Assembly (NCBI RefSeq): GCF_018619335.1
Contig: NZ_JAHHDX010000093.1
Coordinates: 1-64,000, forward strand
DNA length: 64,000 bases
Direction: 5' to 3'
Origin: Alteromonas sp. ALT199
GTDB lineage: Bacteria > Pseudomonadota > Gammaproteobacteria > Enterobacterales > Alteromonadaceae
Shown: positions 229 to 11,148 of the stretch, piece by piece
How positions within the stretch are numbered: position 1 is the first letter of the stretch
Layout: each line of letters begins with the position of its first letter
Program-made: the position numbers and the translations under genes
Notes under the pieces: model-generated
What the model was told of the DNA's origin: nothing
Seen by the model: only the letters and a program-made list of their open reading frames with translations
The model's database searches: none

Positions 229-3200
229 TCAAGACTCGCCTTTTTTATAGGGAATCGCGTTTTCTAACTCTTCAATTTCATTAGTGCGCTGAAGTGGAGA
301 GCCTGTGTTTCGAGCAAGCCAACGATACGCCGTGGGAACAACGTAAAGCGTCATAAACGCAGAGACAAGGACGCCCGAAAAGATAACCATACCTATGACC
401 ATTCTGCTTTCTGCACCAGGACCTGATGCGAGTACTAAGGGTAAAGAACTAAATACAGTAGTAAAGCCGGTCATCACTATAGGGCGTAACCGCTGCGCAG
501 CAGCGCGCTTAAGTGCAAGTTCAAATTCCATACCTGCATCGCGAAGTTGGTTGGCAAACTCCACAATCAAAATACCGTTCTTAGCGGCAAGACCAATAAG
601 CATGACCAAGCCTATCTGGCTGTAAATATTAATCGTCATACCGCTAAAAAACAGCCCGATATAGGCACCAACAAGCGCCAGCGGCACAGTCAGCATAATC
701 ACTAACGGATGCACCCAACTTTCAAACTGTGCAGCTAATATTAAGTAAGTCACTGCAAGCGCAAGCATAAAGACATAAACAAAGGAATTACCAGCTTCTT
801 GGTAAAGTTGTGATTCACCTTTGTAATCAATAGACACGTTATCAGGCAATTCAGTGGCAACTATATCCTCTAAATAAGCAAGTGCCTCACCGAGTGTATA
901 GCCCTCCGCCAGGTTCGCCGATATAGTTACAGCCCGCATTCTGTTATAACGATTGAGCTGTGCGGATGTAGCTTGCTCCTCAAACGTTAGCAAGTTATCC
1001 ATGGGGATGAGTTCACCTGTACGTGATGAACGCACATATAAATTTTCAATGCTGTTAGGACTTCTAAAGTCTTCCTCTATACCTTCCATGATAACGTCGT
1101 ATTCTTCGCCTCTATCAAGGAAAGTAGACACCCTACGCTGGCCTAGCATCACTTCCAATGTGCCACCAATATCACTGATAGACACGCCTAGGTCGGCGGC
1201 TCTGTCCCGATTGATATTGACCAAAAGCTGTGGGGAAGTCTCTTTATAGTCTGAGTCTAGTCGAATTAATCCAGGGTTTTGCGCCGCTTTTTGTATTACC
1301 GTGTCACGCCACTCGACAAGATTTTCGTAGGTATCGCCTTGCAATACAAACTGAACAGGACGCCCGAGCCCGCCGCCAGATATACCGCTTCGCATAATTG
1401 CGAAAGCGCGAACATCGGGAACACTGTTGAGCTTGGCACTGATTTCATCCATTAATGAAAATGTGCTGAAATCGCGTTCATCCCAATCTGCTGAACCAAC
1501 TATTGCAATCCCCGCATTGCCACCAAATCCAGGCGTTCTTACCAATAAACGATTGATTTTTCCGCTTTCGCGGTATGGCATAAGGACGTTCTCTATTTGC
1601 GCTAGGTTTCGTGCGTTACTTTCAAAACTTGCACCTTCTTGTGCATTCATCAAAATGAAGAAGTTGCCTCTGTCTTCTTTAGGAACAAACTCGCTTGGAA
1701 CCTTCTCTGAAAGCTGAACTAACGCGATAACTGCAATAACAAGCATAAGTAGCATAAGAATAGGTTGATGCAGCGTTTTACCTAACGTATTGAAGTAACC
1801 CGTTTCAAGTTGTGAGAACCGCTTGTCCATCCAGCTTCCAAAGCCGGAAGAACGGGGGCGCTTTTTAAGAATTTTCGACGCCATCATGGGTGACAACGTA
1901 AGCGCAGTAAAACTCGAAAAAGCCACTGCTGCCGCAATCGCCAGCGCAAACTCGGTGAAGAGTCTGCCAATATTCCCTTCAAGAAAGACTAAAGGAACGA
2001 ACACAGAAATAAGCACCAGCGTTGTCGCGATAACAGCAAAACCTACTTCCTTGGCACCGCGATAAGCTGCCAAAATAGGAGGCTCTCCCATTTCTATGCG
2101 TCGATAAATATTCTCAAGCACAACAATCGCGTCATCCACCACAAGACCAATTGCTAACACCATAGCAAGCAGCGTAAGTAAGTTTATCGAAAAGCCTAGC
2201 GCGTACATTACGATAAATGCAGCAATGATAGAAACGGGAACCGTAACGGCCGGAATGAGTGTCGCGCGAATATTGCCCAGGAAAAGGTAAATCACGATCA
2301 CTACCATCAGCATCGCGATACCCAAGGTCTCGTACACTTCATCAATCGACGCTTCGATGAAAACAGACGAGTCGTAGCTTGGTACAATAAAAATATTGTC
2401 TGGTAAAGTATCTTCTATTCTTTCAATCTGTGCTTTAGCTGCGCGAGCTACTTCGAGAGTATTGGCTTTAGACTGCTTGATAATGCCAAGCCCTATCATA
2501 TTGACGCCATCGCCTCGAAACTCGGTTTCGTCATCTTCAGCGGTTAGTTCAACATGAGCAATTTCGCCAAGGCGTACAAGGTAGCCATTATCGCCTACGG
2601 CGACGGTCAGCGCTGCAAAATCATCAGGCGTTAGAAAAGTTCGCGCCACTCGCACTTCAAAATCACGATCAGAACTTTCCACTTCACCAGCAGGTAGCTC
2701 TACGTTTTCTGCACGAATAACTTGCTCTACATCGCTAACAGTTATTCCCCTGGCCGCCATAGCATTGCGGTCTAGGAACACCTTCATGGCGTAGCGTCTA
2801 CCCCCACCAATTTGCACACGGGCAACACCATCTACAATCGACAACCTATCCACCAGTACGCGCTCAGCGTAATCGGTCAGCTCCATGGTATTTAGATTAG
2901 TACTTCGAAGGTTGTACCACACTACCGCACTTTCATCGGAATTCGCTTTAGACACTTCAGGTGGGTCGGCTTGGTCTGGCAGGTTATTAAGTGCACGACT
3001 GACTCGCTCTCGCACATCATTGGCCGCTGCATCAATATCTCGCGTAAGTTTAAACTCAATAGTAATATCTGAGCGACCATTACGAGATGTGGACGTAACG
3101 TTTTTTATGCCTTCAATACCCGAAATTCTGTCTTCTAAAAGCTGAGTAATTCGGGTCTCTACGATGTTCGCTGACGCACCCGTATAGTTCGTGCTTACAG

Positions 3201-3336
3201 ATACAATTGGCGGGTCGATATCGGGGTATTCACGTAAACTAAGCATAGAGAACGCTGCAATGCCAAAAATAATCAGCAGTAGGTTGAGTACGGTTGCAAA
3301 AACCGGGCGCTTTACAGAAACGTCTGATAATAACAT
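229..3336 (-). CDS. RND efflux pump, inner-membrane transporter (AcrB/MexF-like)
   Basis: Proton-driven resistance-nodulation-division transporter, 1035 aa, the usual length of the hydrophobe/amphiphile efflux family. It should form the inner-membrane trimer of a tripartite pump. The N-terminus (LLSDVSVKRPVFATVL) is the typical first helix. The motif GLVVDDAIVVLENI, at about residue 400, carries the two adjacent Asp residues of the proton relay in TM4. Two homologous halves are visible, each with a large periplasmic loop and a cluster of hydrophobic helices. The ATG start has GGGAG 9 nt upstream. The adaptor gene ends 13 nt upstream, so the two are co-transcribed. No outer-membrane channel gene or regulator is adjacent. 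Substrates cannot be read from the sequence. Confidence 0.95.
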   Translation of the reverse strand: MLLSDVSVKRPVFATVLNLLLIIFGIAAFSMLSLREYPDIDPPIVSVSTNYTGASANIVETRITQLLEDRISGIEGIKNVTSTSRNGRSDITIEFKLTRDIDAAANDVRERVSRALNNLPDQADPPEVSKANSDESAVVWYNLRSTNLNTMELTDYAERVLVDRLSIVDGVARVQIGGGRRYAMKVFLDRNAMAARGITVSDVEQVIRAENVELPAGEVESSDRDFEVRVARTFLTPDDFAALTVAVGDNGYLVRLGEIAHVELTAEDDETEFRGDGVNMIGLGIIKQSKANTLEVARAAKAQIERIEDTLPDNIFIVPSYDSSVFIEASIDEVYETLGIAMLMVVIVIYLFLGNIRATLIPAVTVPVSIIAAFIVMYALGFSINLLTLLAMVLAIGLVVDDAIVVLENIYRRIEMGEPPILAAYRGAKEVGFAVIATTLVLISVFVPLVFLEGNIGRLFTEFALAIAAAVAFSSFTALTLSPMMASKILKKRPRSSGFGSWMDKRFSQLETGYFNTLGKTLHQPILMLLMLVIAVIALVQLSEKVPSEFVPKEDRGNFFILMNAQEGASFESNARNLAQIENVLMPYRESGKINRLLVRTPGFGGNAGIAIVGSADWDERDFSTFSLMDEISAKLNSVPDVRAFAIMRSGISGGGLGRPVQFVLQGDTYENLVEWRDTVIQKAAQNPGLIRLDSDYKETSPQLLVNINRDRAADLGVSISDIGGTLEVMLGQRRVSTFLDRGEEYDVIMEGIEEDFRSPNSIENLYVRSSRTGELIPMDNLLTFEEQATSAQLNRYNRMRAVTISANLAEGYTLGEALAYLEDIVATELPDNVSIDYKGESQLYQEAGNSFVYVFMLALAVTYLILAAQFESWVHPLVIMLTVPLALVGAYIGLFFSGMTINIYSQIGLVMLIGLAAKNGILIVEFANQLRDAGMEFELALKRAAAQRLRPIVMTGFTTVFSSLPLVLASGPGAESRMVIGMVIFSGVLVSAFMTLYVVPTAYRWLARNTGSPLQRTNEIEELENAIPYKKGES

Positions 3337-3349
3337 GACTGTGTGCTCC

Positions 3350-4399
3350 CTAGCGGTTTAGTACATTAACCGGAGACTGGTCGCGTACGCGAAGTGTACC
3401 TTCGGTTATCACTTCATCTCCTTCATTCAAACCACTGACAATTTGAACTAACCCTGGACGACGCTCTCCAATTACCACTTCGGTTTGATGCGCAACGTCA
3501 TCTTTAACTACATACAAATATTGCTTGTCTTGTACCGGTACCAGTGCTTTCTCTGGTAATACCAATGCGTTAAGCACTCTCTTTTCTACCACTATGGTAA
3601 GCAGCATGCCAGGGCGCAGTCGGCTGTCTTTGTTATCTATTATTGCTCGTACACGAATTGAGCGGCTAATGGGGTCAAGACGCGTATCAATGCTGGTGAT
3701 TTTCCCTGTAAACTCTACTCCAGGATAAGCCACTGAGGATGCGCTCACAGACTGTCCTGTTGCCACACTTGCAAGGTGATTTTCAGCAACACTGAAGTCA
3801 ACTTTAATTTGGCTGATGTCATCTAAACTGGTGATGGTGTCGCCGGGCTGAACTAGCGAACCAATACTGATTTCGCGGTTGCCCAAAAAACCGCTAAATG
3901 GCGCGCGAACTTGAAAGTCATTAAGCTGTGCTAGTGCTATGTCTAGCTGAGCCTGCAGTGCTTTTACGCGGGCTTGCTGTTCATCAAGAAGCTGTTCAGA
4001 GGTGGCATTTGACTGACGCAGGTTAGCTATGCGGGTGAACTGACGTTTGGCCTCGTCAATATTTGCTCTTAGCTCTTCAACCCTCGCACGCTCTTCAGTG
4101 TTATTAAGCTGAACCAGTAGTTCGCCTTCTGTTACTTTGTCTCCATCATCAAAATTTATTGTTTTTACCGTATCGGTAACTTGCGCAGTAATATTCACCG
4201 ACTCGTTAGCGGTAGCCGTACCGAGTGACTCTATAGTGATAGGAAATGCTCGAGACGACACTAAAGCCGTCTTTACTGGCGTCGCCCTTGCACTGGCGTT
4301 TTTTTTACTCTCTTCTTCGGGCATATTCAGATACACCACAACACCAGCAAGCAACACTGCGCCAAGTAATAATGGCGATAACGATAATCGTGAAGACAT
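3350..4399 (-). CDS. RND efflux periplasmic adaptor (membrane fusion protein)
   Basis: HlyD/AcrA-family adaptor, 349 aa, bridging the downstream RND pump to an outer-membrane channel. An N-terminal hydrophobic segment (about residues 7-25) acts as anchor or uncleaved signal; there is no lipobox Cys. A barrel-sandwich lipoyl half-motif follows (about 60-95), then a short coiled-coil hairpin (about 100-150), the second lipoyl half (FRAPFSGFLG-like, VRAPFSGFLGNREIS), a beta-barrel (about 200-270) and a membrane-proximal domain ending in VLNR. It is first in a two-gene operon with the pump. The short hairpin resembles MexH/VexE-type adaptors. Regulation is not evident; no TetR/LysR gene is adjacent. 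Confidence 0.93.
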   Translation of the reverse strand: MSSRLSLSPLLLGAVLLAGVVVYLNMPEEESKKNASARATPVKTALVSSRAFPITIESLGTATANESVNITAQVTDTVKTINFDDGDKVTEGELLVQLNNTEERARVEELRANIDEAKRQFTRIANLRQSNATSEQLLDEQQARVKALQAQLDIALAQLNDFQVRAPFSGFLGNREISIGSLVQPGDTITSLDDISQIKVDFSVAENHLASVATGQSVSASSVAYPGVEFTGKITSIDTRLDPISRSIRVRAIIDNKDSRLRPGMLLTIVVEKRVLNALVLPEKALVPVQDKQYLYVVKDDVAHQTEVVIGERRPGLVQIVSGLNEGDEVITEGTLRVRDQSPVNVLNR

Positions 4400-4637: not shown

Positions 4638-5183
4638 ATGGTCATCTTATTTCGCTTATCAGCTATATTCGCTGTTTTAACGCTTTTCTCATGCTCACAG
4701 TCGTCACCTAACTCTCCAATGTGTCGTGTTTCTGATCCACTTGTCCCAGAAAACGTGCACGCTATGGCAAGTAGCCGCGTGTCTCCCATTGCAGCTGCCT
4801 GTTTAATAAAAACTGGCAGCAAAGTGTTGCTGGTTCAGCATCGCCTGTCCGGCAAATTAGACTTCCCCGGCGGAGGGCTAGTCGAAGATGAATCACTCGC
4901 CTGCACTGCCCATCGAGAAACGTGGGAAGAAACGGGTTTTAACGTTGAGGTGAAAGAATACTTATCGACGACGGTCAATGGCCTTGTCATATTCGGCTGT
5001 CATGTAGACGCGGGAATTGAAAAACTCCCGAACACTTTCGATGCGCCACCGTGGGCAAAGATAGAAGTTATCAGGCTCGTTAAGGCAGACCCATTTATGC
5101 TCGACCACGATGCGCTTCGCTTTGCCGATGATCTTATTCCCTTGCGCGATGGCTATACCCATTTCGATATAAAGCATCACTGA
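4638..5183 (+). CDS. NUDIX hydrolase with lipoprotein-like signal
   Basis: 181 aa. The NUDIX box is complete: GGGLVED-E-SLACTAH-RETWEETGF fits G-x5-E-x7-REUxEExGU, with the Mg-binding Glu residues present, so it probably hydrolyses a nucleoside-diphosphate-linked substrate. The N-terminus is unusual: a hydrophobic stretch ends in LFSC at residues 16-19, close to a lipobox, suggesting export and lipidation. NUDIX enzymes are normally cytosolic. The first ATG is the only start that retains this signal, but no convincing ribosome binding site precedes it. An internal Met near residue 28 or 42 would give a cytosolic form. It is read towards the aldolase gene, 65 nt away. Substrate unknown. Confidence 0.75.
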   Translation: MVILFRLSAIFAVLTLFSCSQSSPNSPMCRVSDPLVPENVHAMASSRVSPIAAACLIKTGSKVLLVQHRLSGKLDFPGGGLVEDESLACTAHRETWEETGFNVEVKEYLSTTVNGLVIFGCHVDAGIEKLPNTFDAPPWAKIEVIRLVKADPFMLDHDALRFADDLIPLRDGYTHFDIKHH

Positions 5184-5248: not shown

Positions 5249-6016
5249 TTGTTTTCACTGCCAACATTAAGCCTAAAAGACAAAGTATCTGAACAAGAAT
5301 GGCAAACCCGTGTCGATTTGGCGGCGTGCTATCGGTTAGTAGCAGATATGCGGTGGGGCGACCTTATTTATACCCACATTTCCGCTAAGGTACCGGGCAC
5401 AGATCATTATCTTGTTAACGCCTTCGGACTTACCTTCGATGAAGTTACAGCTTCAAACCTAGTCAAAGTCGACTTAGACGGCAATATACTGGATGACACC
5501 CCCTATGGGATTAACCCTGCGGGCTTCACTATTCACAGTGCAATTCACGAAGTGCGCCACGACGCCCAGTGCGTTATTCATTTGCATACTCTAGCCACCA
5601 TCTCCGTGGCTTCGGTGAAAGGCGGGTTAAAACCGTGGAGCCAGTATTCAATGTTTTCGCTTCCTTCGCTTTCTTATCACAGCTACGAAGGCTTAGCCGT
5701 AGATGATAGCGAGAAAAAGCGTTTGCAGGACGATCTTGGTGATGCGAACCACATGCTTTTGCCTAATCATGGCGGTCTAACGCTAGGCCCAACTGTAGGC
5801 GACGCTTTTATGCGCTTTTACGATTTACAGCGGGCGTGCGAAATTCAGCTTGCGTTGATGCAATCTAACGAAGCGGTTATCGAAATACCGCAAAGCATTA
5901 TTGATGGTATATACGCCCAGGCAAATGTTGTTCACAGCGGCGAAACTGGCGGACAAAAAGCATGGCCAGCCATGTTGCGCAAAGCCTATAAACTAGACCC
6001 AAGCTTTTGCGAATAA
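5249..6016 (+). CDS. Class II aldolase/adducin family protein
   Basis: 255 aa zinc-dependent aldolase of the FucA/RhaD/AraD/adducin fold. Candidate zinc ligands are the HLH of VIHLHTLATI (about residues 111-113) and the His of LLPNHGGLTLG (about 175). The start codon is TTG, chosen because AGGAG lies 7 nt upstream (5237-5241). The dehydratase gene follows on the same strand 54 nt later, so the pair is probably one operon. In this setting it may cleave the 2-keto-3-deoxy acid made by the dehydratase, but adducin-family members also act on unrelated substrates and the true reaction is not shown by sequence. Confidence 0.85.
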   Translation: MFSLPTLSLKDKVSEQEWQTRVDLAACYRLVADMRWGDLIYTHISAKVPGTDHYLVNAFGLTFDEVTASNLVKVDLDGNILDDTPYGINPAGFTIHSAIHEVRHDAQCVIHLHTLATISVASVKGGLKPWSQYSMFSLPSLSYHSYEGLAVDDSEKKRLQDDLGDANHMLLPNHGGLTLGPTVGDAFMRFYDLQRACEIQLALMQSNEAVIEIPQSIIDGIYAQANVVHSGETGGQKAWPAMLRKAYKLDPSFCE

Positions 6017-6070
6017 TTAAGCCTATTTAGCTAAACGCCAACTCACTTTAAACAGGAATTTTTTTAGTAT

Positions 6071-7255
6071 ATGAAAGTCACCAAAGTAGAAATTTTTGAT
6101 ATCGAATGCCCTAAACGCCCGCAGTGGAACCCTGTTTTCGTGCGTGTTTACACCGATGAAGGCATTACTGGCGTAGGTGAAGCAGGGCTTGCTTATGACT
6201 GGGGTCACAGCGCCGCAGCGCATATGATTAAAGAAATTACCGAGGCGATGCTAATTGGCTTTAACCCCTTCCACACTGAGCTGCTTTGGTCGAGAATGCT
6301 GCGCGAGGGCTTTTGGGGACTAGGCGGTGGCCCGGTAATTTATGCCGCTATGAGCGCAATTGATACGGCACTTTGGGATATTAAAGGCAAAGCACTTGGC
6401 TTGCCTGTGTACGAACTACTGGGCGGTAAAACGAATGGCAAGCTTCGTAGCTACGCCAGCCAGCTGCAGTTTGATTGGGACAAAGAAGTGACCAAGCTTA
6501 ATGACCCAGCAGATTATGCACGTGCCACAGAAAAGGCGCTGAAAGACGGCTACGATGCCGTTAAAGTTGACCCCATCGTATACGATAAAGACGGCAACAC
6601 CCACTTTGACAGAACCAAGCTGTTCACAAAGCCCGAGCTTAAACTTTTCAAAGCTCGCCTTCAGGCCATTAGAGACACCATGGGCGAAGATGGCGACATT
6701 ATCTTTGAATGTCATAGCTTATTGGGTGCATCTACGGCCATTCAGCTGGGCGATATGGTTAAAGAAATTGGCTGCTTATATTACGAAGAGCCAGTAAACT
6801 ACCTGAATTCTAAGCTTCACGACAAAGTAGCGAAGAACGTCAACGTGCCGATTGCGGGCGGTGAACGTTTGTATCATCGCTGGGATGTTCGCCCTTACCT
6901 TGAAGACCAGTCCCTTGATGTACTTCAACCTGACGTAGGCCTTTGCGGTGGTTTTACAGAAGCGAAAAAGGTATGTGACTATGCCGACATTTACGACGTG
7001 CGCGTTCAGGCCCACGTTTGCGGAGGCCCAGTTGCTACTGCGGCGAGTCTGCATCTAGAAACGGCTATTCCAAACTTCTTAATTCACGAGCATCACACCT
7101 ATGCGATTAAAGATTGGAACCGTGAACTTTGTATTCAAGATCCTCAGCCAGTAAATGGTTTTATTGAAGCGCCAGACACGCCGGGAATTGGAATAGATCT
7201 GAACGATGAGGTGGTTTACCGCTCGCCACATATGACAGTAACTGAGCTTAAATAG
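6071..7255 (+). CDS. Enolase-superfamily sugar-acid dehydratase (mandelate racemase/galactonate dehydratase-like)
   Basis: 394 aa. The N-terminal capping domain (about 1-125) is followed by a TIM barrel. Visible family landmarks are the KVD strand (DAVKVDP), the metal-binding acid runs FECHS, YYEEP and AGGER, the QPDVGLCGG strand and the catalytic-dyad region QAHVCGGP. These resemble galactonate/gluconate-type acid-sugar dehydratases more than muconate cycloisomerases. The expected product is a 2-keto-3-deoxy sugar acid. It lies downstream of the aldolase and convergent with the lactonase and SDR genes. The exact sugar acid (fuconate, galactonate, arabinonate or other) cannot be decided; it is shorter than typical L-fuconate dehydratases (about 440 aa). 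Confidence 0.87.
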   Translation: MKVTKVEIFDIECPKRPQWNPVFVRVYTDEGITGVGEAGLAYDWGHSAAAHMIKEITEAMLIGFNPFHTELLWSRMLREGFWGLGGGPVIYAAMSAIDTALWDIKGKALGLPVYELLGGKTNGKLRSYASQLQFDWDKEVTKLNDPADYARATEKALKDGYDAVKVDPIVYDKDGNTHFDRTKLFTKPELKLFKARLQAIRDTMGEDGDIIFECHSLLGASTAIQLGDMVKEIGCLYYEEPVNYLNSKLHDKVAKNVNVPIAGGERLYHRWDVRPYLEDQSLDVLQPDVGLCGGFTEAKKVCDYADIYDVRVQAHVCGGPVATAASLHLETAIPNFLIHEHHTYAIKDWNRELCIQDPQPVNGFIEAPDTPGIGIDLNDEVVYRSPHMTVTELK

Positions 7256-7328
7256 CAAAGTTACACAACAGCAGTGTTGCAATGGAATAATTCCAGTGTA
7301 AGCCTTAGCGTTTACGCTAAATTAGCTT

Positions 7329-8204
7329 TTAAGCAATGTCATACCATTGTTTAGCATTGACAGATAACAGCGCCGCTTTTTGAGCTTCAGAAAGCGGCGC
7401 TGTCATATTTGATAACCCTCGCCAAAGCGCAGCATAAGGCATACGCCATTTACACAATGGGTAATTGCTCGCGAACATTATCTGATTTGCGCCTACAGTA
7501 GTTAGCAAAGTCTCAAAAATATAGGAGGCTCGCTGCCACTGCCAATTGCGGTTTTGCATTTCTAACCCCGAAAATTTAAACGCGACCTGTCCGGTTTCAC
7601 TTAAATCACGGATATTCTGCTGCCAAGCTTTAAACGCATAACTTTTTACCTCTAGTGGCGCAATAGCGGTGTGGTTAATAGCTACTTTTAATGAGGGGTT
7701 TTGTTCTAATACGTTAAGTAATGCACTCACGGCATTGCTATTTGCAAAATTTAGCTGCGCCTCAAAAGACAAGCCTCTAGAAGCCATATGACTAAGCGCC
7801 CACTTTACTTTAGGAGCGCGTAGAAGCGATTCAGCGTCATCATCTAAAATATGGCGAAGGCCACGTACAGAACAGTACAGCCCTAGCTTATCAATATGAC
7901 TGCCAACGCTGTTCCCAACTAAATCTATACACGCAACTGCGCGAAATGGCAGCGTACAATGACGCTCAAGAAAGGTAATTTCTCGCCACGGTCTATCGTT
8001 ATCGTAACCCGCTTCTAAATGCACAAACCCACAAAGCCGACCTAAAGAAGCCCGATAAAGCATGTACTCTGTAGTGTTCTTAGCAATCGCTTTTTTATCT
8101 GCCCAGAAAGGCGCATTCGCGGGCTTTAGCCAGCCATAGACCCCTTCGTTTAAGGCAAAGAAGTGAATATGAGGGTCTATCCAAGTATGTGAATGCTGAC
8201 TCAT
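7329..8204 (-). CDS. Amidohydrolase-family lactonase (L-fuconolactonase-like)
   Basis: 291 aa amidohydrolase 2 family protein. The N-terminal metal motif is DPHIHF (HxH, residues 12-14), and the C-terminal MFASNYPLCKW carries the Asn/Asp-type end motif seen in fuconolactonase/4-sulfomuconolactone-hydrolase relatives. Such enzymes open sugar-1,5-lactones made by a dehydrogenase. The SDR gene lies 56 nt upstream in the same direction, so the two form an operon. The role is inferred from the surrounding dehydrogenase, dehydratase and aldolase set. The ribosome binding site is weak (AAGG 13 nt upstream). Confidence 0.85.
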   Translation of the reverse strand: MSQHSHTWIDPHIHFFALNEGVYGWLKPANAPFWADKKAIAKNTTEYMLYRASLGRLCGFVHLEAGYDNDRPWREITFLERHCTLPFRAVACIDLVGNSVGSHIDKLGLYCSVRGLRHILDDDAESLLRAPKVKWALSHMASRGLSFEAQLNFANSNAVSALLNVLEQNPSLKVAINHTAIAPLEVKSYAFKAWQQNIRDLSETGQVAFKFSGLEMQNRNWQWQRASYIFETLLTTVGANQIMFASNYPLCKWRMPYAALWRGLSNMTAPLSEAQKAALLSVNAKQWYDIA

Positions 8205-8260
8205 TTTTTTATCTAACCTTATTTTGTGCCGTAGCCGAGCGCGCCTCTTTTGAGCACTTT

Positions 8261-9055
8261 CTATTGAGCTGTATAGCCCCCATCGACAGCGTACAAGCTT
8301 CCCGTGATGAAAGACGCTTTTTCGCTACATAAAAAATAGGTCAGTTCCGCTACATCCTCTGGCTGGCCCAAGCGTCCAATGGGCTGTGCAGAAGCTTCTT
8401 CGGCTACCACTTCATTTTTATCTGCCCCAGAACGAGCCACGTAATTATCGATCGCGTTGTGAAATAGAGGCGTTTCGATAGTGCCTGGGCACACTGCGTT
8501 TACGCGAATATTGTAGGGTGCATAGTCGAGTGCCGTCGTTTTTGCCATAGACGCCAGTGCCCCTTTACTTACCCCATAGGCAAAGGAATTGCGCTTCCCT
8601 ACAAAGGACTGATCAGAGCCCATCACCACAATGGCTCCACTTCCCTGCTCTTTCATCGTCCGCAAGCATGATTTTATTGCGCCATAAGCGCCTTTAACAT
8701 TCAGGTTGAGTACTTTATCGAGCAAGGCTTCATCAGTATCTTCAATGGTCGCGGAAACGTGAATACCTGCATTACATACCAATACATCTATTCGTTGAAA
8801 AGTGGCAGTGACTTCTTTGATTGCAGCTTCAATGTTACTTACTACGCTTACATCACAAGGTTTCCAAATGGCATTAGGCACGGCTTGTTCAAAATCTCTG
8901 ATATCAAGGTTAACAACTTGATAGCCGTTTTGACTAAATAGCTCGCATACCGCAAAACCAATACCCAAACTCCCACCCGTTACAATGCAAACTGGGCGCT
9001 GCTCTTTATTATCACTGGTGTGTTCAAGGTTTTTGTTAGTGCTATCTGACTTCAT
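8261..9055 (-). CDS. Short-chain dehydrogenase/reductase (probable sugar dehydrogenase)
   Basis: 264 aa classical SDR. The Rossmann glycine motif is GGSLGIGF (about residues 27-34), NAG occurs at about 95, and the catalytic Ser and YxxxK are in GSDQSFVGKRNSFAYGVSKGAL. The Asp at the end of the second strand (NLDIRD) suggests NAD preference. A 20-residue polar N-terminal extension precedes the fold, and no strong ribosome binding site supports the first ATG. It is first in the operon with the lactonase, so oxidation of a sugar to its lactone is the natural inference. A perfect palindrome centred 83 nt upstream is a likely operator. Confidence 0.88.
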   Translation of the reverse strand: MKSDSTNKNLEHTSDNKEQRPVCIVTGGSLGIGFAVCELFSQNGYQVVNLDIRDFEQAVPNAIWKPCDVSVVSNIEAAIKEVTATFQRIDVLVCNAGIHVSATIEDTDEALLDKVLNLNVKGAYGAIKSCLRTMKEQGSGAIVVMGSDQSFVGKRNSFAYGVSKGALASMAKTTALDYAPYNIRVNAVCPGTIETPLFHNAIDNYVARSGADKNEVVAEEASAQPIGRLGQPEDVAELTYFLCSEKASFITGSLYAVDGGYTAQ

Positions 9056-9387
9056 ATCAATGTGTACCGTTTCAATGGTGCGTAGGTAAATGGATTAATT
9101 TAGGCTAAGCATGCCAGTGAGAATATGAATTGCAAGGTAACTTGCAAACGGGGGGCATAATTATATAGCCAAACAGGCTGCCAACTATATTTACTGAAGC
9201 CTGTGAACACTTAAAATGAGTGCTTCGTTCTATATATATACCGTTAATCGCGAAGCTGACCTGCTATTGTTTGTCACCACATCAATCAAATTTATTATTA
9301 ACTTTCCTTTAACGGGCTATTCGGACTACGCTTTTTGTGACTATAATAGGCAAAATTAAAACACTTGTTTGAAAAAAGGAGTCATCC
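9056..9387. other. Divergent promoter region, SDR operon / acyl-CoA dehydrogenase
   Basis: 332 bp between divergent genes. It contains the palindrome at 9130-9147 and AT-rich stretches but no additional open frame of note. Promoter hexamers are not assigned with confidence. Confidence 0.6.
9130..9147. promoter_or_regulatory. Palindromic operator candidate upstream of the SDR-lactonase operon
   Basis: Perfect inverted repeat TTGCAAG-GTAA-CTTGCAA, 7-bp arms with a 4-bp spacer. It lies 75-92 bp upstream of the SDR start codon. The size and symmetry suit a dimeric GntR- or LacI-type repressor, but no regulator gene lies in the cluster, and no copy was noticed upstream of the aldolase gene. Confidence 0.5.
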
Positions 9388-11148
9388 ATGCCTCTGTACC
9401 ACGCCCCTACAACTGATTTTCAATTCTTACTAAAAGACTGGCTTGGACTCGATGCTCACTACGAAAAGCTCGGTATCAGCGACTTTGATAGCGACCTAGC
9501 CAATGAGATTATTGCGCAGGGCGCAAAATTTGCTCTTGATGTAGTAGCCCCTCTTAATCGTGAAGGCGACGAAGAAGGCTGTAAGCTCGAAAACGGTAAA
9601 ATTACCACGCCTACGGGTTTTGCCGATGCCTATCAGGAATATGTTGCAAACGGCTGGAATGCGATGTTAGGCACCGCCGAATATGATGGTCAAGACTTGC
9701 CATATACCATGGCTGTACCTGTACACGAAATGCTAAACGCGGCGAACCTTAGCTGGCGTTTAACCACAATGCTTACAGAAAGTGCCACCCTTGCGGTAAC
9801 TAAACACGCCAGTAAAGAGCTTAAAGATATATACCTTGCCAAGTTAATCAGTGGCGAGTGGACAGGCACCATGAATCTGACAGAACCTCATGCTGGTACA
9901 GATTTGAGTCTATTAAGTACTAAGGCCGAGCCTCAAGGCGACGGCAGCTACAAAGTGACCGGTAACAAGATATTTATTACCGCTGGCGATCAAGACTGGA
10001 GCTCGAACGTCATTCACCTTGTTCTTGCTCGCCTACCTGACGCGCCGAAAGGCGTTAAGGGAATAAGCTTGTTCTTAGTGCCTAAACTCCTTCCAGATGC
10101 CAATAATGAGCCTGGTGAAGCAAACAGCCTTTCTGTAGGAAGTATCGAACATAAGATGGGCATTAAAGCGAGCCCAACATGTGTGATGAATTTTGACGGT
10201 GCAACCGGTTATCTTGTAGGTGAGGAAAACCAAGGCCTTGCATGTATGTTTACCATGATGAACGACGCGCGTTTCCAAGTAGGCCTCCAAGGCTTAGGCG
10301 CTGCCGAAGCATCGTACCAAGGTGCCCTGACCTACGCCCGCGAACGCGTACAGTCTCGCGCACCTCAGGGTATCCAAAACCCAGAGGGCAAAGCGGACCC
10401 AATCGTATTTCAACCTGATGTAGCGCGTATGTTGCTTACACAGAAATCACTGATTGAGGGCTGCCGTGCACTTTCACTTTTCTACGCCAAATTTATGGAC
10501 GTAGAGAAACTTGGTGAAGGCCAGGAAAAGGAAGATGCAGATAAAGTGCTGCAATTTTTAACGCCAATCTGTAAAGCCTTTATGACTGATATGGGGCTTG
10601 AAACCACCAGCCTTGGTGTACAAGTATTCGGTGGTCACGGCTTCATTCGTGAATGGGGCATGGAGCAGCTTATGCGCGATGTTCGCATTGCCATGCTATA
10701 TGAAGGTACCAACGGTATTCAGGCTTTAGACCTTATTGGCCGTAAGCTTACTCGTGATGGCGGTCAGATGATGGAAGCCACGTACAATGCATTTAACGCC
10801 TTGGTTAGCAACATGCAAGACAGTGAATCGAAAGCGCTAGCTCAAGGTATTCTAGATGACTGGCGAGCGTCTTCAGCAGACTGCTTAGGGATGGATGCAA
10901 CGACCGCTGCAGCAGCGGCATGCGATTATCTGGCTTACAGCGCCTATTCACTTATTGGTGTACTGTGGTACAGCATGGCTGACAAAGCTCAGACTTCGGG
11001 TAACGCGGTACTTGCCGCTTCTAAGTTGAAGACTCGCGACTTTTACATAGAGCGTATATTAGTGCGTCGCGATTCACACAAATCAGCTTACAAGGCTGGC
11101 CCTGAAAGCACGCTCGCTATCTCAGGTAACGAGTTCGATTATTTGTAA
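9388..11148 (+). CDS. Acyl-CoA dehydrogenase, long form (DmdC/PA0506-like)
   Basis: 586 aa FAD-dependent acyl-CoA dehydrogenase, about 200 residues longer than classical members, with the extra C-terminal domain found in DmdC-type (3-methylmercaptopropionyl-CoA) and related fatty-acyl enzymes. FAD-binding motifs are TEPHAGTDL and FITAGDQDW (about residues 165-205). The catalytic base Glu is in MLYEGTNGIQALDLIGRK (about 445). The ATG start has AAAAGGAG 6 nt upstream. It stands alone, bounded by a strong terminator. Whether it serves beta-oxidation or dimethylsulfoniopropionate breakdown cannot be told, because no other dmd genes are present. Confidence 0.92.
   Translation: MPLYHAPTTDFQFLLKDWLGLDAHYEKLGISDFDSDLANEIIAQGAKFALDVVAPLNREGDEEGCKLENGKITTPTGFADAYQEYVANGWNAMLGTAEYDGQDLPYTMAVPVHEMLNAANLSWRLTTMLTESATLAVTKHASKELKDIYLAKLISGEWTGTMNLTEPHAGTDLSLLSTKAEPQGDGSYKVTGNKIFITAGDQDWSSNVIHLVLARLPDAPKGVKGISLFLVPKLLPDANNEPGEANSLSVGSIEHKMGIKASPTCVMNFDGATGYLVGEENQGLACMFTMMNDARFQVGLQGLGAAEASYQGALTYARERVQSRAPQGIQNPEGKADPIVFQPDVARMLLTQKSLIEGCRALSLFYAKFMDVEKLGEGQEKEDADKVLQFLTPICKAFMTDMGLETTSLGVQVFGGHGFIREWGMEQLMRDVRIAMLYEGTNGIQALDLIGRKLTRDGGQMMEATYNAFNALVSNMQDSESKALAQGILDDWRASSADCLGMDATTAAAAACDYLAYSAYSLIGVLWYSMADKAQTSGNAVLAASKLKTRDFYIERILVRRDSHKSAYKAGPESTLAISGNEFDYL

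Follow-up and report, generated by a model that had tools for sequence, protein, structure and literature searches.

The non-phosphorylating pathways for L-fucose and L-rhamnose are built from a short-chain dehydrogenase/reductase (SDR), a COG3618 lactonase, and an enolase-superfamily dehydratase, followed by either an aldolase or a dehydrogenase-hydrolase; the last step of non-phosphorylating pathways is usually carried out by enzymes of the HpcH/HpaI or DHDPS type. Here, we describe a four-gene cassette of Alteromonas sp. ALT199, located in a stretch of 64,000 nucleotides (contig NZ_JAHHDX010000093.1, positions 1 to 64,000; hereafter the window). The cassette has the first three enzyme classes in common with the L-fucose and L-rhamnose pathways but differs in its adducin-type last enzyme, in its layout as two convergent operons, and in the lack of a local transporter, mutarotase, or regulator (Table 1). 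It is well supported that the four genes form one co-inherited, family-restricted unit, kept or lost together in marine Alteromonas-type bacteria; the enzyme families are ordinary and the probable pathway is of a known kind, but the last enzyme is unusual. Inherited together, the four genes probably specify a pathway that oxidises a single sugar, or a small set of sugars, to small acids without a phosphorylation step; a deoxyhexose or a related aldose is a fair guess, and no more, for the sugar itself.

The aldolase and dehydratase genes lie on the plus strand and converge on the lactonase and SDR genes of the minus strand. Relatives were taken from the best 80 of 101 confirmed dehydratase loci, with open reading frames (ORFs) of at least 90 amino acids (aa) chosen longest-first; at one locus (L102), a longer antisense ORF displaced the aldolase and dehydratase, and this locus was left out of the counts. 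The aldolase and dehydratase genes are adjacent on the same strand in all 79 loci where they were called, and the two pairs are convergent in the window and in each of the 61 fetched four-gene loci (62/62), with no called ORF in the gap between the pairs in 41 of these stretches and one to five in the other 21. Among 59 genomes of the genus, orthologues of the aldolase (E ≤1.7e-142), the lactonase (E ≤1.2e-78), and the SDR (E ≤4.6e-97) are all present in 43 and all absent in the other 16. These limits were set after the gap between orthologues and paralogues had been seen, and weaker matches in four of the 16 cassette-less genomes (lactonase, 6.7e-32 in G829; aldolase, about 1e-73 to 1e-75 in G002, G016, and G813) were counted as paralogues. 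The dehydratase, checked in 36 of the 59 genomes, agrees with the other three genes (29 present, seven absent). Co-absence within the genus carries the caveat that a single deletion can remove adjacent genes.

A stronger test of linkage than all-or-none presence in the genus is the persistence of pairs that have become separated. The aldolase-dehydratase pair stands alone in 17 fetched stretches, 14 of which were traced genome-wide (all except L052, L073, and L102) together with two four-gene loci as controls. We found the lactonase and SDR genes in all 16 traced genomes, side by side on one strand in the 14 pair-only ones; in three Paraglaciecola genomes, one contig carries both pairs, which remain convergent at a distance of 13 to 18 kb (L075/L174, L101/L181, and L091/L179). 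In a phylum panel of 398 genomes, the dehydratase (E ≤1e-100) and the close lactonase (E ≤5.7e-70; next-best match, 4.7e-54) mark an identical set of 13 genomes, in three of which (G198, G717, and G735) the two genes are on different contigs or far apart. Since separated pairs are both kept, and since the panel also holds genomes with the dehydratase and lactonase apart, the link is functional and not positional alone. Like the family-level gene identities, the conserved catalytic residues, and the purifying selection given below, this all-or-none presence and this pair integrity are results of calculation. A sequence-only reading of the window had proposed the four enzyme classes, their arrangement in two convergent operons, and a functional linkage of the genes; the family scans bear out the first, the ORF coordinates and the 62 four-gene stretches the second, and co-presence in genus and panel together with pair integrity the third.

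At the family level, the four enzyme classes and their co-inheritance place the cassette, with its predicted functions, among the non-phosphorylating oxidative sugar pathways, and we infer its reactions, step order, cofactor preference, and products as follows. The SDR would oxidise C1 of the sugar to a lactone, which the COG3618-like enzyme would open to the aldonate; dehydration of the aldonate by the enolase-superfamily enzyme would give a 2-keto-3-deoxy acid. The adducin-type metalloenzyme would then split this acid, with a metal-dependent retro-aldol reaction as the most likely mechanism and pyruvate plus an aldehyde as its products. The two operons would thus correspond to two halves of the pathway, the SDR and lactonase producing the aldonate and the dehydratase and aldolase consuming it, so that, on this predicted chemistry, the boundary between the gene pairs coincides with the aldonate.

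All four genes are under purifying selection, although unequally; the ratios of nonsynonymous to synonymous substitution rates (dN/dS) given here come from nine species pairs and are rough, as several dS values exceed 1. The SDR (dN/dS 0.03-0.12; adh_short_C2, PF13561, and adh_short, PF00106) has the Ser-Tyr-Lys triad and TGxxxGIG motif of a classical SDR, and S147, Y160, K164, and D51 are retained in 62/62 sequences. The Asp following the second β-strand suggests a preference for nicotinamide adenine dinucleotide. Its matches in the PDB include 3vtz, named glucose 1-dehydrogenase, which ranks after 4e4y and 4ni5, whose function is unnamed.

The lactonase (dN/dS 0.11-0.29) belongs to Amidohydro_2 (PF04909), and its AlphaFold model (mean predicted local distance difference test, pLDDT, 95.5) has the COG3618 fold, with 4dlf (TM 0.82 by query length, E 1.4e-15; profile E 8.8e-19) and 4do7 (TM 0.81) as the best PDB matches. 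Both structures are of a COG3618 protein from Burkholderia, which we take to be an L-fucono-1,5-lactonase. H12, H14, H62, E64, N177, H178, K210, E215, and N247 are invariant in 40/40 aligned sequences. More distant lactonase relatives were examined in 18 stretches (parts of L221 and L222 excepted): they adjoin an SDR and another mandelate-racemase-type (MR-type) dehydratase in L213, L215, L220, and L223, and an SDR with no MR-type dehydratase in L214; no aldolase relative was found near the distant lactonases of these stretches. Within one pathway, the rates of the lactonase and the dehydratase (dN/dS 0.00-0.04) contrast over the same nine species pairs.

The dehydratase combines the MR_MLE_N (PF02746) and MR_MLE_C (PF13378) domains with the three carboxylate metal ligands (E213, E239, and E265) of a mandelate-racemase-type enzyme, and K165, E213, H215, E239, E265, D288, and H315 are retained in 80/80 sequences; we take the E-x-H motif to hold the third-strand ligand and the histidine to be that of the seventh strand. 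Similarly to D-galactonate and ManD-type dehydratases, it has these residues and full-length matches to the PRK14017, glucon_galact_dh, and ManD profiles, but it falls under every cut-off (242.2 against 311 bits for PRK14017, D-galactonate dehydratase; 218 against 750 and 202 against 550 for the others), and its nearest solved relatives (4e6m/2gl5, 2o56, and 2ox4) are labelled just 'putative dehydratase' or 'putative mandelate racemase'. It is also of another subfamily than the dehydratases of the L-fucose and L-rhamnose pathways, sharing 25-28% identity with the MR-type proteins of the fuconate-type stretches inspected. The nearest named relatives among the best 80 of 101 confirmed loci, at 99% identity, are those of Alteromonas sp. 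IB21 and A. portus. In one genome of the genus, the dehydratase gene is split over two frames (G025:C1:3164002-3165182).

The adducin-type aldolase is an odd last enzyme for such a pathway. Its ORF (dN/dS 0.01-0.09) begins with a TTG codon preceded by a purine-rich AGGAG, and Pfam gives Aldolase_II (PF00596, 147 bits) alone, with none of the usual last-step families. It exceeds the cut-off of NF005451 (PRK07044 aldolase II superfamily protein; 340.4 against 207 bits), a curated family that names no reaction and the sole curated cut-off passed by any protein of the cassette. The AlphaFold model (pLDDT 88.5) is closest to 3ocr (TM 0.92), followed, in rank order, by adducins, NovR, 4xxf, TqaM, pyruvic oxime dioxygenase (POD), decarboxylases, and FucA. 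The fold and the histidine triad (H111, H113, and H174, invariant in 24/24 aligned orthologues) are common to FucA and the cassette enzyme, but the catalytic Glu73 of FucA is replaced by Gly92, equally invariant, and FucA Tyr113 falls in a segment that has no counterpart in the alignment. Because the cassette contains no kinase, no phosphorylated substrate is expected, unlike in FucA. The sequence-only reading had called a class II adducin-type aldolase unusual as a last step, and the missing Glu73 and a structural ranking nearer to adducin and NovR than to FucA agree with it. A second adducin-type paralogue (G000:C127:7129-7875, plus strand, E 6e-106) lies apart from the cassette, and many other cassette-bearing genomes of the genus have similar ones (about 1e-105 to 1e-108).

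An alternative is that the last enzyme is a non-haem Fe(II)- and O2-dependent enzyme, which would break down the 2-keto-3-deoxy acid by oxidative decarboxylation or cleavage, in the manner of NovR, TqaM, and POD, whose substrates resemble 2-oxo or oximino acids. Oxygen would then be required for the final step of the pathway. With PRK07044/3ocr, adducin, NovR, TqaM, and POD, the cassette enzyme has in common the fold, the three metal histidines, and Glu155, which is invariant in 24/24 aligned orthologues; 3ocr (function unnamed), the adducins, NovR, TqaM, and POD all rank above Escherichia coli FucA by structure, and the loss of Glu73 points the same way. Glu155 stands 19 residues ahead of the metal ligand His174, a spacing equal to that of Glu164 and His183 in POD, where Glu164 is reported to occupy the position of FucA Glu73 and the E164A variant to retain 3.7% of kcat/Km (PMC11841055); POD activity is reported to be driven by Fe(II) and not Zn(II) (PMC5216522). 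Paralogues of the cassette enzyme from other genomes align a Glu at the position of Glu155. The glutamate is nevertheless no proof of chemistry, since α-adducin also has Glu at this position and β-adducin has Asp. To our knowledge, α-adducin is not an enzyme. Furthermore, 4xxf, named fuculose-1-phosphate aldolase, similarly lacks Glu73; it falls among the NovR chains in the structural ranking and precedes TqaM in the profile ranking. The cassette enzyme shares just about 21-26% identity with NovR, TqaM, and POD, the metal cannot be told from residue checks, and the fold may have been repurposed in many lineages. We regard an Fe(II)/O2-dependent last enzyme as unlikely, and a marine sugar-acid pathway that ends in an adducin-type Fe(II)/O2 break or decarboxylation of the 2-keto-3-deoxy acid, and not in a retro-aldol split, as rather unlikely. 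On the residues and folds compared, retro-aldol cleavage appears the likelier reaction. Cleavage of a 2-keto-3-deoxy sugar acid is not described for any of these relatives in the material examined, and no adducin-type protein linked to it was found in the literature searched, which mostly left out subscription journals; the cassette enzyme, in contrast, is tied to an acid-sugar dehydratase in 79/79 called loci.

Several observations weigh against the proposed oxidative sugar route. For named sugar-pathway enzymes, all four proteins score below the curated cut-offs: beside the dehydratase scores above, the SDR stays under that of PRK06398 (aldose dehydrogenase; 207.4 against 341 bits) and the lactonase under that of NF052480 (L-fucono-1,5-lactonase; E 4e-16, 59.3 bits against 400). 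The replacement of FucA Glu73 counts here as well. In the lactonase, Asn247 (ASNYP, 40/40 aligned sequences) stands in the place of an Asp in 4dlf (GSDWP); we take this Asp to be catalytic, and D248 mutants of the relative LigI are among the structural matches. The lactonase gene is broken into two ORFs with a stop in G797 (L172:8353-9205), and in G816 (G816:C1:655947-656699) it matches to profile position 253 with one internal TGA, while the partner genes are kept in both; such damage, present in two or more genomes, could be tolerated if the lactone opened spontaneously as well. Unlike in typical sugar operons, the surroundings of the cassette in the fetched loci show no recurrent gene for a sugar transporter, kinase, mutarotase, or regulator. 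Beyond this order, 11 plasmid stretches were inspected, six with relatives of the dehydratase and five with relatives of the aldolase (L126, without annotation, was read by ORFs); none has the two enzymes together, and these stretches gave no hint of a substrate. The sequence-only reading had seen a complete route like that for L-fucose. The likeness stands in the lactonase, which is nearest to 4dlf/4do7 and several of whose distant relatives have an SDR and an MR-type dehydratase as neighbours; assignment to a named sugar would go further than the cut-offs and the substrate evidence reach.

The two pairs might act on different substrates and occur together only through ancestral adjacency. 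This would fit the unequal rates, in that across loci the dehydratase is 77-99% and the lactonase 30-78% identical to that of the window, and the physical separation of the pairs in at least 14 genomes. However, both pairs are kept in 14/14 genomes in which they are apart, three of three tested genes are absent together in 16/16 cassette-less genomes of the genus, and the predicted chemistry of the halves meets at the aldonate, which makes different substrates quite improbable. We give a similarly small chance to a unit that handles a non-sugar lactone or hydroxy acid, for example, in metabolite repair or detoxification. Such a role would explain the missing transporter and regulator, neither of which recurs in the flanks, and the very strong constraint on the dehydratase and aldolase suggests a core more than a niche function. 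Yet the enolase-superfamily relatives with curated names in our scan are mostly sugar-acid dehydratases, the best curated and structural relatives of the lactonase are L-fucono-1,5-lactonase models (the structural ones as we take them to be), and 16 of the 59 genomes of the genus do without the cassette.

The cassette of the window has no gene for a regulator or transporter within it or immediately next to it, in keeping with the sequence-only reading, and the flanks contain no sugar genes. The same reading had offered a perfect palindrome (7+4+7) as a marker for the missing regulator and transporter. The palindrome, which lies in the divergent promoter region, is exact as a string at 9130-9147, and a search of the window with up to three mismatches gave three matches against 0.14 expected by chance, two of which are this site read in both directions. 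None of 61 relatives has it upstream of the SDR gene (0/61), and those inspected retain something like its left arm only. Genome-wide, allowing up to two mismatches, there are 38 matches (three exact in the 14 fixed bases, this site among them, two with one mismatch, and 33 with two) against 18 for a reversed control. All four of the remaining exact or one-mismatch places, two of each kind, fall within ORFs, and by eye two of these ORFs resemble ribosomal protein L10 and initiation factor 2. Among the 33 with two mismatches, two were examined, one inside an ORF and one outside. The palindrome was rejected as a regulon marker, and it is highly improbable that it is the operator of an unlinked regulator controlling the cassette and its transporter, for all its symmetry, its place in the promoter region, and its excess over the reversed control.

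The nearby element TAAGCATGCCAGTGAG is better conserved than the palindrome, in that 13 stretches of the Alteromonas group, the window among them, have a GCATGCC core and the other 10 of the 23 do not. Genome-wide, the element (TAAGCATGCCAGYGAG) recurs with up to two mismatches at six other places, all inside ORFs; it marks no second locus and was also rejected as a regulon marker. In 11 of the 80 loci (L080, L082-L086, L088, L090, L092, L094, and L097), all Colwellia or Cognaticolwellia, an Lrp/AsnC-type gene (Pfam, one representative) lies between the pairs, and a gene with a similar start (by eye) adjoins a separate lactonase-SDR pair at L180:7441-7896. This gene is the nearest lead to a regulator, as a candidate for the Colwellia/Cognaticolwellia lineage.

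Table 1. Coordinates of the cassette, its upstream elements, and its neighbours in the window.
Feature	Position	Strand	Size or evidence	Assignment
Aldolase ORF	5249-6016	+	255 aa, TTG start	Adducin-type class II aldolase/adducin-domain protein (PRK07044 family); proposed last step, lower half
Dehydratase ORF	6071-7255	+	394 aa	Mandelate-racemase-type enolase-superfamily acid-sugar dehydratase; proposed first step, lower half
Intergenic gap between convergent pairs	7256-7328		73 bp	Separates the stop codons
Lactonase ORF	7329-8204	-	291 aa	Amidohydro_2 (COG3618-like) lactonase; proposed second step, upper half
SDR ORF	8261-9055	-	264 aa	Classical SDR, proposed sugar 1-dehydrogenase; first step, upper half
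Element TAAGCATGCCAGTGAG	9106-9121		Upstream of SDR	Partly conserved in the Alteromonas group
Palindrome TTGCAAG-GTAA-CTTGCAA	9130-9147		Exact in window	Not conserved; probably no operator
NUDIX-domain gene	4638-5183	+	PF00293	Aldolase-side neighbour
RND efflux pair	229-4399			Beyond the NUDIX gene on the aldolase side
Acyl-CoA dehydrogenase	9388-11148	+		SDR-side neighbour

The outer neighbours of the cassette vary by lineage, with NUDIX, TANGO2, ThrE, or other genes on the aldolase side and an acyl-CoA dehydrogenase or other genes on the SDR side; in Neptuniibacter (L100), the neighbours resemble, by eye, a housekeeping block. In 19 of the 62 four-gene stretches, the aldolase is immediately preceded by a NUDIX relative, and the N-terminus of the NUDIX protein in the window resembles a lipoprotein signal (LTLFSC, by eye), suggesting a possible extracytoplasmic NUDIX hydrolase. 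Acyl-CoA dehydrogenases of one cluster are found near the SDR in 35 stretches of Alteromonas and Colwellia, including the window, with 46-47% identity between the two groups; in the window, this gene and the SDR gene share a divergent promoter region. At nine Paraglaciecola loci (L066, L069, L070, L073-L076, L091, and L101), a PhyH-type dioxygenase gene (Pfam, one representative) immediately precedes the aldolase-dehydratase pair.

Adducin-type class II aldolase proteins are widespread, with matches in 322 plasmid records at E 1e-5, and the curated family of the cassette enzyme names no reaction. Here, such a protein is tied by co-inheritance to three enzymes of guessable chemistry, which makes the 2-keto-3-deoxy acid from its partner dehydratase a candidate substrate. 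If the enzyme is a retro-aldolase, it would add a new fold to the 2-keto-3-deoxy acid aldolases. If it is oxygen-dependent, it would bring an oxygenase step, or an oxygen-dependent branch, into non-phosphorylating sugar-acid catabolism, and an Fe(II)/O2-dependent reaction would be the first catabolic role for a PRK07044-type protein. The all-or-none pattern in the genus, with 43 genomes carrying the cassette and 16 without it, offers a clean comparison for tracing the sugar and its transporter.

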